DNA of 64,000 nucleotides from Gordonia mangrovi. GTDB lineage: Bacteria > Actinomycetota > Actinomycetes > Mycobacteriales > Mycobacteriaceae. Numbering within the stretch: position 1 is the stretch's first letter; each line of letters starts with the position of its first letter. The notes below the pieces were generated by a model. That model worked only from the letters and a program-made list of their open reading frames with translations, was not told where the DNA came from and searched no databases. A program made the translations under genes and the position numbers. Below are positions 2,671 through 59,181 of the stretch, in pieces. The stretch covers positions 1,364,001 through 1,428,000 of the forward strand of contig NZ_CP102850.1 in NCBI RefSeq assembly GCF_024734075.1, in the 5' to 3' direction.

Positions 2671-2711
2671 CCCGGGGGCGTCACCTCCCTTCCCAACGTC
2701 CCCACACGGAG

Positions 2712-2820
2712 GCCGACAGAACCCAGAATTTCGCCGAGAGAACCCTCTCTTTCGCCGACAGCATCAAGCCGTCGGCGAGTAGAGGAGGGTTCTCTCGGCG
2801 AAATTCTGGGTTCTGTCGGC
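2712..2820. repeat. Long perfect hairpin between convergent genes (copy A)
   Basis: Two 36-base arms (2712-2747 and 2785-2820) are exact reverse complements around a 37-base loop. The loop holds a second stem (CGCCGAC at 2753-2759 with GTCGGCG at 2771-2777). An outer 8-base pair, CGGAGGCC (2707-2714) with GGCCTCCG (2834-2841), brackets the structure. The arm motifs (CCGACAGAACCC, CGAGAGAACCC) recur in the hairpin at 58518-58623, so this is a repeat family and not a one-off terminator. It sits between the convergent ltp3 and NTF2-like genes and could end transcription from both sides. Confidence 0.9.
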
Positions 2821-2870: not shown

Positions 2871-3323
2871 TTAGACAGGCCTGACCGACGCGATCGTTTT
2901 CTCGACCTCCCAGAACGCGCGCAGCGCGCTCATCTTCCCGTTGGCGTCGGCGCGATAGGTGAACACGCCGTGCGCCTCGGACACATGCCCGGCGATGTGG
3001 GTGACGATCTTGCCGACGTAGGCGACCTCGTTGCCGCAGATGATCTCGTCGTCGAAGACGAATTCGATGCTCTCGGTGGTGGCGATCGACTTGTCCCAGA
3101 ACTCTGCGATCTGTTCGTGCCCGTGGAATCCCTTGCCTTCCGGGTCGAACATCGAGGGCCCCACCGGATCCTCCACCGATCCCTCGGCGGCGAAGTTCTC
3201 CACCCACGCCTGCTTGTCGCGCGCGGCGACGAACTCGCGGGACCGGCGTCCCGCCACCACCGCGGGATGATTCTCCCGGTCGATGTTCAGGTAGGCCGGC
3301 GTCTCCTTTTCCTGCGTGGTCAT
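2871..3323 (-). CDS. NTF2/SnoaL-like (ketosteroid-isomerase fold) protein
   Basis: This 150-residue protein has the look of the NTF2-like/SnoaL family: SREFVAARDKQAWVENFAAE, a GHEQIAEFWDKSI helix, then beta strands carrying HIAGHVSEAHGVFTYR. It starts 10 bases after the end of the P450 gene on the same strand, so the two are probably co-transcribed from the KstR-box promoter region. Family members isomerise or hydrate steroid-like ligands, or only bind them. A role next to the P450 in handling a sterol enone is plausible but unproven. No signal peptide or membrane segment is present. Confidence 0.7.
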   Translation of the reverse strand: MTTQEKETPAYLNIDRENHPAVVAGRRSREFVAARDKQAWVENFAAEGSVEDPVGPSMFDPEGKGFHGHEQIAEFWDKSIATTESIEFVFDDEIICGNEVAYVGKIVTHIAGHVSEAHGVFTYRADANGKMSALRAFWEVEKTIASVRPV

Positions 3324-51366: not shown

Positions 51367-51525
51367 GCTTCGCGCGCACCAATCGCGCATCCGCGCATGT
51401 CCCGACGTGCGCGGATGCGGGCTCGCTGCGCGGATGCCGCGGGCCGCGGCACCGACGACCCCGGCCACGTCGATTTCGGATCGGCGTGCGCAAAGCACGC
51501 CGCGCCGCGCCGGTACCGTGAGGTC

Positions 51526-57072: not shown

Positions 57073-58470
57073 ATGAGTGACACCAGCCGCCCGTTGCGGG
57101 TTGCCATCGTCGGTGCAGGTCCCGCCGGGATCTACGCCGCCGACGCGTTGATGAAGTCCGACACCGCCAAGGACCGAGGCGTCAGCATCGACCTGTTCGA
57201 GCGCATGCCCGCACCGTTCGGTCTGATCCGGTACGGCGTGGCACCTGATCATCCGCGTATCAAGGGCATCATCACGGCGCTGCACAAGGTGCTCGACAAG
57301 CCGCAGGTACGACTCATCGGCAACGTCGACTACGGCACCGACATCACCCTGGACGAACTCCGCGACCTCTACGACGCGGTGATCTTCTCCACCGGCGCCA
57401 CCGACGACCGCGCGCTCGGCATCCCCGGCATCGACCTCGAGGGCAGCTACGGCGCCGCCCAGTTCGTCGCCTGGTACGACGGACACCCCGACTTCCCGCG
57501 CACCTGGCCGCTGGATCAGGAGAAGGTCGCCGTCATCGGTGTCGGCAACGTGGCGCTCGACGTCGCACGCGTGCTGGCCAAGACCGGTGACGAACTACTG
57601 CCCACCGAGATCCCCGCCAACGTCTACGAAGGCCTCAAGGCCAACAAGGCCGTCGAGGTGCACGTATTCGGCCGCCGCGGACCGGCGCAGGCCAAGTTCA
57701 CCCCGTTGGAACTCAAAGAGCTCGATCACTCACCGAACATCGAGGTCATCGTCGCACCCGAGGACATCGACTACGACGAGGGTTCGGCAGTCGCGCGCCG
57801 CGGGTCGAAGATCACCGACCAGGTCGCGACGATCATCGAGAACTACGCCATCCGCGACCCCAAGCAGGGCGCGATCCACAAGCTCTACCTGCACTTCTTC
57901 GAAAACCCCGTGGAGATCCTCGGCGAGGACGGCAAGGTCGTCGGTTTGCGCACCGAGCGCACCCAGCTCGACGGCACCGGCAACGTCAAGCCGACCGGCA
58001 AGCACACCGACTGGGAGATCGGCGCGGTCTACCGTGCCGTCGGCTACCTGTCGGACAACCTGCCGCAGATCCCGTTCGACCACCAGGCCGGCGTGATCCC
58101 GAACGAGGCCGGCCGCGTGTTCGACGAGGGCAGCCAGCTCACCGGCATCTACACCACCGGCTGGGTCAAGCGCGGACCCGTCGGCCTGATCGGCCACACC
58201 AAGGGTGACGCCAACGAGACCGTCGACTGCATCCTCGAGGACATGACCAACGGTGCCCTGCTCTCGCCGAGCCGCCCGGCCGAGGACGCTCTCATCGAGA
58301 TCCTCGAGGCCAAGAGCATCCCGTTCACCACCTGGGACGGCTGGTACCGCCTCGACGAGCACGAGCGCGCCCTGGGCGCCGCCGAGGGCCGCGAACGCGT
58401 CAAGGTCGTCGAGCGCGAGGACATGCTGGCCGCCAGCGAGCCCGACAAGGTCGTGCGCCCCTCCAGCTGA
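57073..58470 (+). CDS. fprA: NADPH-ferredoxin reductase FprA
   Basis: A 465-residue adrenodoxin-reductase-like flavoenzyme. The FAD motif is RVAIVGAGPAGIYAADALM, the NADPH motif is KVAVIGVGNVALDVARVLAK, with FGLIRYGVAPDHPRIKGI and the C-terminal GWVKRGPVGLIGHTKGDAN. It passes electrons from NADPH to ferredoxins that serve P450s, among others, so it may support the two CYP125-like enzymes as well as iron metabolism. The IdeR-like box upstream and iron-transport neighbours suggest iron control. Confidence 0.88.
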   Translation: MSDTSRPLRVAIVGAGPAGIYAADALMKSDTAKDRGVSIDLFERMPAPFGLIRYGVAPDHPRIKGIITALHKVLDKPQVRLIGNVDYGTDITLDELRDLYDAVIFSTGATDDRALGIPGIDLEGSYGAAQFVAWYDGHPDFPRTWPLDQEKVAVIGVGNVALDVARVLAKTGDELLPTEIPANVYEGLKANKAVEVHVFGRRGPAQAKFTPLELKELDHSPNIEVIVAPEDIDYDEGSAVARRGSKITDQVATIIENYAIRDPKQGAIHKLYLHFFENPVEILGEDGKVVGLRTERTQLDGTGNVKPTGKHTDWEIGAVYRAVGYLSDNLPQIPFDHQAGVIPNEAGRVFDEGSQLTGIYTTGWVKRGPVGLIGHTKGDANETVDCILEDMTNGALLSPSRPAEDALIEILEAKSIPFTTWDGWYRLDEHERALGAAEGRERVKVVEREDMLAASEPDKVVRPSS

Positions 58471-58477
58471 CGCGAGG

Positions 58478-58505
58478 CACGTTGGCGAGCTACCTCGCCA
58501 ACGTG
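58478..58505 (+). terminator. Terminator hairpin after fprA
   Basis: CACGTTGGCGAG (58478-58489) and CTCGCCAACGTG (58494-58505) form a perfect 12-base stem with a 4-base loop, 7 bases after the stop. No T tract follows. Confidence 0.75.
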
Positions 58506-58517
58506 CTCAGCACGGCG

Positions 58518-58623
58518 GCCGACAGAACCCAAAAAATCACCGAGAGAACCCACCCGCGATCACAGTCGCGGGCCTCCGTCCAAGACGGTGGGTTCTCTCG
58601 GTGATTTTTTGGGTTCTGTCGGC
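58518..58623. repeat. Long perfect hairpin between convergent genes (copy B)
   Basis: Arms of 37 bases (58518-58554 and 58587-58623) are exact reverse complements. The loop carries its own stem (CCCGCGA/TCGCGGG). The arms share GCCGACAGAACCCA and CCGAGAGAACCC with copy A at 2712, but the middle parts differ in both arms in a compensating way (AGAATTTCG versus AAAAAATCA). This indicates selection for pairing, or a template copying mechanism that regenerates the partner arm. Confidence 0.9.
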
Positions 58624-58695
58624 GTACGCCGAGGTTCTGTCGGCGCGAATCCGGGTTCTGTCGGCGCGAATCCGGGTTCTGTCGGCGCGAAACCG
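58612..58695. repeat. 21-bp tandem repeats, four units
   Basis: GGTTCTGTCGGCG begins at 58612, 58633, 58654 and 58675, an exact 21-base period. Units two and three are GGTTCTGTCGGCGCGAATCC plus one base; the first unit is the hairpin arm end, and the last changes to GCGAAACC. Copy A has a single such unit at 2809-2826. Confidence 0.9.
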
Positions 58696-58731
58696 GGAGG
58701 TGACGTCACCTCCCGAACGTGCGGGTGGGCG

Positions 58732-59181
58732 TCAGTTGTCGATCCGACGGAAGTTCTGCCAGTAACCGAAGTTGTTGGTCAGGTTCTCGGCTTCGTTGGA
58801 GAAGGTGAACCCGGAGATCGAGGACGGGAAGCATCCGAACCAGCGGGTCTCGATCGGGCGGACCCAGCGGTTGCCGTTCCACTTCGACATCGATTCGCCC
58901 GGCTTGAGCTCCTTGACGCGTACCGACGCACCGTTGATCTCGTTGAGGATCACGTCGTGCATGGTGGTGTCACCGATGTTGCGCACGGTCATCCAGCGAT
59001 ACATGTACCAGGCCTGATTCCACGGCTGGCCCCACTGCCCGAAGTGGCATTCGATCCCCCCGAGGATCTGCAGATCGCCCGGTACGGCCGACTGTGCCGG
59101 CGCGGTACCGGCCAGCGAACCGGCTGCGATACCGACCGTGGCCAGCACGGCCGCCCCCGCACGCTTGAGTGATGCTCTCAT
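58732..59181 (-). CDS. Secreted aromatic-rich protein of unknown function
   Basis: A 149-residue protein with a clear signal peptide (LKRAGAAVLATVGIAAGSLA, predicted cut after AQSA). The mature chain is about 117 residues with many Trp, Tyr and Asn (WGQPWNQAWYMYRWMTVRNI) and two Cys, possibly paired. It looks like a small beta-rich domain with an exposed aromatic surface. It lies convergent to fprA and divergent from the iron permease genes, but whether it has an iron role is open. I recognise no family. Confidence 0.7.
   Translation of the reverse strand: MRASLKRAGAAVLATVGIAAGSLAGTAPAQSAVPGDLQILGGIECHFGQWGQPWNQAWYMYRWMTVRNIGDTTMHDVILNEINGASVRVKELKPGESMSKWNGNRWVRPIETRWFGCFPSSISGFTFSNEAENLTNNFGYWQNFRRIDN

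Follow-up and report, generated by a model that had tools for sequence, protein, structure and literature searches.

Two long hairpins between convergent genes

In the stretch of 64,000 nucleotides of Gordonia mangrovi DNA analysed here (the window), two long hairpins, A and B, lie between the 3' ends of converging genes. Hairpin A (2712-2820) stands between a thiolase-like gene on the plus strand (1492-2670; Pfam Thiolase_C_1) and a SnoaL-like gene on the minus strand (2871-3323; Pfam SnoaL_2), both with their 3' ends towards it. Hairpin B (58518-58623) follows the 3' end of a plus-strand pyridine-nucleotide oxidoreductase gene (57073-58470; Pfam Pyr_redox_2), which we take to be FprA-like, and is faced by an unnamed minus-strand open reading frame (58732-59181) without a Pfam match. 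A second fprA-like gene, 81% identical, is present elsewhere in the genome (contig C1, 1171656-1173017). The genes come from a codon-usage script with the window as training set rather than from curated annotation, and together with the Pfam assignments these calls agree with the convergent setting given in the original prediction.

The inverted-repeat search resolved hairpin A into arms of 36 nt (2712-2747 and 2785-2820) with 37 nt between them, and hairpin B into arms of 37 nt (58518-58554 and 58587-58623) with 32 nt between them; the arms are 100% complementary in both cases, exactly as had been predicted. No other inverted repeat among the window's listed matches, with arms up to 300 nt apart, is as long; the next non-overlapping one reaches 29 nt at 83%. 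The arms far exceed chance: in 20 windows simulated with a first-order Markov model perfect close inverted repeats reached at most 15 nt in one and stayed below 14 nt in nineteen, compared with 37 nt observed. A search of the window against Rfam gave no match at the gathering score.

Each arm is built from two units of a 21-bp repeat, which comprises a 14-bp core (GGGTTCTSTCGGYG) and a 7-bp spacer. In hairpin A, the outer left unit (2711-2724, minus strand, locus L076) departs from the core at one position and is followed by an inner left unit with the core GGGTTCTCTCGGCG (2732-2745, minus strand), and the two are mirrored by inner and outer right units on the plus strand (2787-2800 and 2808-2821); the loop contains a degenerate third left unit with three mismatches (2753-2766, minus strand). 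Hairpin B is organized in the same way, with an outer left unit carrying one mismatch (58517-58530, minus strand), an inner left unit (58538-58551, minus strand), an inner right unit followed by the spacer ATTTTTT (58590-58603, plus strand) and an outer right unit (58611-58624, plus strand). It is continued by three more direct plus-strand units in 21-bp steps (58632-58687) behind the 3' end of the minus-strand gene. The outer motifs said to be common to A and B are present, and the predicted folds contain the expected inner stems, two small ones in the loop of B and one in that of A. An imperfect 29-nt inverted repeat with 2 nt between its arms, found at 51373-51432 of the window, has no match to the core.

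A 21-bp repeat throughout the genome

The unit is not confined to the window. Within the 5,388,218 bases of the genome, the exact core GGGTTCTSTCGGCG occurs 64 times and its reversed control not at all, and a core with Y at position 13 and one mismatch allowed has 162, compared with 2 for the reversed pattern. Pairs of cores exactly 21 bp apart gave 105 matches at two mismatches and 116 with a degenerate core at one mismatch, all controls being empty. When neighbouring cores less than 100 bp apart were measured in 34 loci with no chaining rule, the spacing was exactly 21 bp in 117 of 120 cases, a count biased to 21, and one from which weak copies are missing, by the use of core and 21-bp pair patterns to gather the loci. 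In total, the places listed hold at least 178 units in at least 48 arrays in a genome of 5.4 Mb. The search for more copies that had been proposed was thus productive both here and in relatives: matches in named records fell at 11 places in Gordonia tangerina (strain GW1C4-4), at one in Gordonia rhizosphera (NBRC 16068) and, as a stray, at one in an Oscillospiraceae record. The repeat is a short palindromic extragenic unit in many dispersed copies. No description of it was found in the literature searched, which is no proof of absence.

Two helical turns and seven codons are candidate reasons for the 21-bp period. A repeat coding for a peptide was rejected, since most arrays lie outside predicted genes; arrays within predicted open reading frames number 3 of 48 here and 12 of 32 in 30 short loci of 3 kb, counts that may be inflated where the gene caller reads through stop-free arrays.

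Position and polarity at gene ends

Sense refers to the strand of the immediately upstream gene, on which the unit reads CRCCGASAGAACCC followed by its spacer. Such a co-oriented upstream gene precedes 37 of the 48 arrays of this genome (8 are opposite and 3 lie inside open reading frames), and 34 of these 37 arrays begin at a distance of -16 to 64 nt from the stop codon. The 31 elements outside open reading frames are distributed over convergent gaps (15, including 9 hairpins), co-directional gaps (14, including 3 hairpins) and divergent gaps (2, including 1 hairpin), compared with 42 convergent, 135 co-directional and 42 divergent gaps in a background of all fetched loci that includes the element-bearing gaps (219 in total). 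Convergent gaps make up 42 of 219, yet hold 9 of 13 hairpins and 15 of 31 elements; the convergent placement originally proposed for the hairpins is accordingly preferred. It is no rule, since 4 of 13 hairpins lie in other gaps and co-directional gaps are used as well. The placement rule is a position behind the stop codon, mostly in one orientation, with co-directional genes included.

Because an array between convergent genes is in sense with one of them whichever way it points, polarity was tested only on solitary arrays in co-directional gaps. Over five genomes these are sense and antisense in a ratio of 34:10, made up of 10:1 here, 9:1 in G. tangerina, 6:3 in G. rhizosphera, 4:1 in genome G170 and 5:4 in the distant genome G006; the polarity is weak in G006 and G. 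rhizosphera. The solitary co-directional class of this genome includes locus L064, treated elsewhere as a hairpin, and two arrays that overlap gene ends (L057 and L074). Only part of the listed arrays was taken in from the four other genomes, and the gap classes include neither the five elements of G. tangerina that lie at contig ends nor the five within open reading frames (three here and two in G. rhizosphera).

The orientation of paired arrays is uniform. All 31 classifiable close inverted pairs are sense-inward and none is outward (13 here, 7 in G. tangerina, 4 in G. rhizosphera, 6 in G170 and 1 in G006), and among adjacent arrays 150-2500 bp apart 17 pairs point inward, 5 are direct (4 and 1) and none points outward. 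The 17 wide inward pairs enclose one predicted gene in 12 cases, none in 4 and two in 1, and the ten enclosed genes that were run through Pfam encode mostly ordinary enzymes. Three genes flanked by inverted arrays have a Pfam DUF559/MTES_1575 domain, namely those at L073, at L128 (the counterpart of L073 in G. tangerina) and at L245, and none was found at L190; such genes occur between inverted arrays in lineages with different cores. A link of the repeat to this nuclease family was dropped, as most of its 10 matches in the genome are away from the listed repeat places; the match at 4291841 is between arrays, and that at 1226585 is 1.6 kb from a single core with one mismatch.

Arms, spacers and loops of the hairpins

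That the arm centres would differ between copies and still pair within each copy was anticipated from A and B, and the same is seen in all 14 hairpins of the genome with matching spacers: the 7-nt spacers are identical (7/7) in both arms of 14/14, though they differ between loci. Over 27 hairpins of three genomes the mean spacer match is 6.07 of 7, compared with 3.31 when right arms are re-dealt (highest of 2000 re-deals, 4.63), with the arm register picked for the longest perfect run and kept as it is in the shuffles, and with related hairpins counted separately. Counted from the inner core, pairing is uninterrupted for 33-34 positions in 11 of the 14 hairpins here, and for 28, 20 and 12 at L071, L065 and L064, respectively. 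A run of 34 is reached by only 3 of 13 hairpins in G. tangerina and G. rhizosphera, so that the 'perfect' arms of the original prediction describe 11 of 14 copies in this genome but not most copies in these two relatives.

The inner cores are 36-38 nt apart in 12 of the 14 hairpins, and 30 and 41 nt apart in the other two. Several loops hold a worn third unit, which resolves the distance into a base of ~16 nt plus 21. The inner spacers of the hairpins are richer in T than those of solitary arrays (an average of 3.08 of 7 over 24 hairpins from three genomes vs 1.63 over 157 spacers from two, p = 0.001), with at least five T in the 7-nt spacer in only 6 of the 14 hairpins here; B has six and A has three. 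The spacer ATTTTTT recurs at three loci of the genome, and the outer motif CCCAGCACGG is, by eye, common to several hairpins.

Shared places and paired changes among near relatives

Array places are largely held in common with the nearest relatives. Homologues (78-99% identity) of genes that bear arrays in this genome precede 24 of 26 sampled arrays in G. tangerina, and homologues of such genes precede 9 of 17 in G. rhizosphera, where ~0.13 would be expected at random if 38 of an estimated 4,900 or so genes bear arrays. With the distant G006 1 of 17 positions is shared, and with genus g10 none of 21 sampled arrays, for which reason the inheritance of array places is shown for near relatives only. 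These counts cover arrays with a usable upstream gene, after four duplicate rows of 138 had been dropped. At the nine places shared with G. rhizosphera the fifth base of the core differs in four (GGGTT vs GGGTG) and the consensus core differs somewhere in eight; L187 and L202, both duplicates of other loci, were left out of this comparison.

The shared places count against two further explanations. A mobile element of the REP/MITE kind, mobilized by a transposase acting in trans, would account for the many dispersed copies, for the recurrence of the outer motif and of the ATTTTTT spacer at three loci, and for the scarcity of positions in common with distant relatives. We consider this quite unlikely, given that most sampled arrays of G. 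tangerina and 9 of 17 in G. rhizosphera are at places where this genome also has one, that the stretch 58500-58700 is without a match in plasmid or phage records, and that Y1_Tnp/RAYT was found in none of 59 Gordonia genomes by a search whose control was positive in 5 of 14. REP proper, one of the identities offered in the original prediction, is thus unsupported, and membership of the REP/RAYT family was rejected. The other explanation, growth of arrays by replication slippage in untranslated 3' gaps with hairpins matched by template switching and no function at all, is in our judgement slightly less probable still. It is in keeping with the avoidance of divergent gaps (2 of 31 elements here), with the resemblance of spacers within an array and with the fact that template switching needs no selection; without function one would not expect polarity with respect to the upstream gene, places shared among near relatives, a conserved core combined with a variable spacer, or hairpin spacers richer in T.

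To follow how the arms change over time, five hairpins with complete arms were picked and compared with their G. tangerina orthologues, in registers aligned manually; copies truncated at contig ends and heavily worn ones (L118, L119, L123 and L126 among them) were not part of the set. Of 175 paired positions 162 are unchanged, 10 have changed on both arms (8 of them still paired in both species) and 3 on one arm, where 0.76 double-arm changes would be expected if the arms were independent. Applied to five hairpins related to B, RNAalifold gave a consensus fold in which the long stem is retained together with two small stems in the loop, with both-sided changes in 6 of 45 pairs (4 in the long stem); the overall covariation term of +0.32 gives no support. 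Covariation between arms, proposed at the outset as a check, was borne out by the ratio of 10 double to 3 single changes in the five orthologues and not by the consensus fold. The loop stems are weakly supported, as 9 of their 10 pairs are broken in at least one sequence.

The loops of the five orthologous hairpins have 18 to 30 identical positions of 36-38. Inversion of the loop is expected of some template switches; one of the five loops (L059/L115) fits better inverted (3 vs -8) and four fit better colinear, a weak signal. The matched arm changes would fit template switching between arms, and compensatory selection would leave the same pattern. Template switching is reported to be able to create and maintain RNA hairpins (PMC8794818).

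Eight repeat places in G. tangerina are at most ~520 bases from a contig end, seven of them within 200 (contigs C7, C17, C21, C28, C33, C41, C44 and C54; loci L113, L117, L120, L121, L122 and L126), and L113 and L117 match the two sides of the single hairpin L071 here, as if that assembly broke at hairpins.

The loci of A and B in other Gordonia

A search of 59 Gordonia genomes gave 30 loci behind fprA; the repeat hairpin is found in two of them, those of this genome and of G. tangerina. In 27 of the 28 others a perfect stem of at least 10 bp lies within 330 nt of the stop codon, and several have a symmetric hairpin with A-tract, GC-stem and T-tract. A strict terminator detector accepts 16 of the 30 loci and neither of the repeat-bearing ones. 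Two genomes (G040 and G049) have divergent array-like repeats, recognized by eye, beside a canonical terminator. Given the stems at the other fprA loci, an ordinary bidirectional terminator was apparently replaced at B by the repeat hairpin. For convergent gaps in general, other strong stems are about equally rare, 2 of 15 where there is a hairpin and 3 of 18 where there is no array, which does not speak for a replacement of terminators at large; the canonical-terminator detector had no match in the gaps examined of two genomes and is uninformative there. Another short repeat (CCGCCGGCTGAGCC..., in steps of ~19-22 bases by eye) is found between stop codon and terminator behind fprA at L157, L159, L161 and L165.

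The SnoaL-like gene of locus A was likewise followed to 30 loci in the 59 genomes, several of which have unrelated hairpins. In G. rhizosphera an array of seven units lies behind it, and in G. tangerina the next gene is a different one and an array is found near a contig end. Other hairpin families with repeated arm motifs (CCACCCCATCTCTTG... and ATCCGCACCTCGTCTG...) occur behind this gene at L080-L085, L101, L103 and L104. By eye, an extra gene seems to follow the SnoaL-like gene in several relatives (L079-L089) that is absent from 2671-2870 of the window, and the gap around hairpin A looks as if a stretch between two gene-end arrays had been lost.

Distribution in the family and lineage-specific cores

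A pattern of three units at exact 21-bp steps, restricted to positions common to the variants seen, was found in 6 of the family's 31 genera and in 44 of its 401 genomes, with no match in any control; genomes without a match may have another core. The matches comprise 26 of 53 Gordonia and members of genera g10, g12, g16, g18 and g29, those of g29 (one to three in each of four genomes) being regarded as noise. In a sample of the whole class 5 of 296 genomes matched, this genome included, and the other four had one or two places each. The cores are specific to lineages (GCGCACGGTCGACG, GGGCACGGTCGGCG, GGGCGCTGTCGGCG and others), with more than one in some genomes.

Head-to-head arrays of genus g10 have gaps of 24, 24, 45, 24, 44, 45, 45, 46, 128 and 24 nt, which equal 2-4 modulo 21 in 10 of 10, and their arms are unequal, with 22-30 of the first 35 positions in agreement in the 10 pairs. 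Register across the centre is thus more general than matched arms. The register is among the grounds for an explanation in which the arrays are sites of a putative DNA- or RNA-binding factor at gene 3' ends, acting as a roadblock or in RNA processing or stability, and the hairpins are a by-product of facing sites. It draws further on the polarity, on the exact 21-bp period in spite of variable spacers, on the recurrence of that period with different cores across lineages, on the near-constant gaps here (36-38 nt in 12 of 14) and on the core changes at places shared with G. rhizosphera (fifth base in 4 of 9, any position in 8 of 9). We hold it to be unlikely, as sites bound in the duplex need no identical spacers in both arms, and homogenisation among arrays could equally yield lineage-specific cores, of which some genomes have more than one.

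Lineage-specific cores are also what a DNA-uptake type of signal would show, one occurring in dialects and serving as a terminator when paired, as in the Neisseriaceae. Signals of the DUS/USS type are not known to occur in tandem, and the repeat described here is tandem, polar relative to genes and of low density, with 178 units grouped into 48 arrays in the loci fetched from 5.4 Mb. In common with such signals, its core varies by lineage and stands in inverted pairs at gene ends; the DUS dialects of the Neisseriaceae have inverted pairs associated with terminators (PMC3630211). Copy numbers of DUS/USS run to hundreds or thousands (PMC2346458). Taken together, these features make an uptake signal a very improbable identity for the repeat.

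A model of the gene-end hairpins

The anatomy of the arrays, their polarity and register, the matched change of the arms and the places common to near relatives are observed, and together they suggest a model in which the unit is a polar gene-end repeat, facing arrays form bidirectional terminator-like hairpins, and the arms are matched by template switching plus selection. In this genome two facing arrays pair through two units per side, with matching spacers and a nearly constant loop size. A transcript of either gene could fold into this stem, with a T-rich spacer after it in some copies, and the stem may act as a bidirectional terminator or as a hairpin that protects 3' ends. Template switching by DNA polymerase across the hairpin would copy one arm onto the other, and selection for the stem would remove broken copies. 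We give this model even chances of being right; confidence in it is tempered by the imperfect state of most hairpins in two relatives and by the unfavourable covariation term.

Judged from the DNA, a role as bidirectional terminator is plausible. Of the features of intrinsic terminators, the stem is present, and at least five T are found in 6 of 14 spacers, including that of B and not that of A. The short loop of 3-8 nt is lacking, the inner cores being 36-38 nt apart in 12 of 14. A simple terminator scan gave nothing at A and B, with a loop limit of 8 that excludes loops of this kind. Rho-utilisation sites were considered as well, given that the sense core is C-rich here, and set aside in view of cores such as CGTCGACTGGGCGC in the sense direction in G020 and G027.

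A wider version of the model, more tentative and in our estimate improbable, would see in the polar 21-bp arrays a code for gene 3' ends in Gordonia and at least four related genera, with a lineage-specific core read by a putative sequence-specific factor that defines transcript ends; the hairpins would then be two end marks fused into one bidirectional terminator. To our knowledge, the definition of transcript ends in high-GC actinobacteria is poorly understood, and a polar, exactly spaced gene-end repeat whose core varies by lineage would be a handle on a possible dedicated factor. The orthologous hairpins, with double and single changes at 10:3 in five of them, in addition offer a natural experiment on the maintenance of paired stems by template switching.

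Comparison with known systems

Integron attC sites were considered and set aside as an identity for the repeat. Mycobacterial MIRU are tandem repeats at gene ends in one orientation, and in this respect, as far as their general description goes, they resemble the present arrays; they differ in having a longer unit and are not known to form hairpins like these. Bidirectional intrinsic terminators lie between convergent genes and share with the repeat hairpins this position, a GC-rich stem and, in some copies, an A-tract before and a T-tract after the inner stem. The repeat hairpins differ from them in a paired run of 33-34 or more in 11 of 14 copies, a loop of ~37 nt, fewer than five T in 8 of 14 spacers, and their construction from a genome-wide 21-bp repeat.

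REP/BIME elements with RAYT (PMC2817692) are dispersed extragenic palindromes as well. The present repeat is set apart from them by 21-bp arrays, a preferred polarity, places shared among near relatives and the absence of RAYT from the Gordonia genomes searched. From the DUS dialects the repeat differs in its exact 21-bp tandem steps, its polarity behind stop codons and a copy number below that usual for DUS. It resembles them in having a short core in lineage-specific versions and inverted pairs that go with terminators (PMC3630211). Minus the features of density and single units, DUS dialects in paired terminators are the closest known behaviour to that of the repeat described here.
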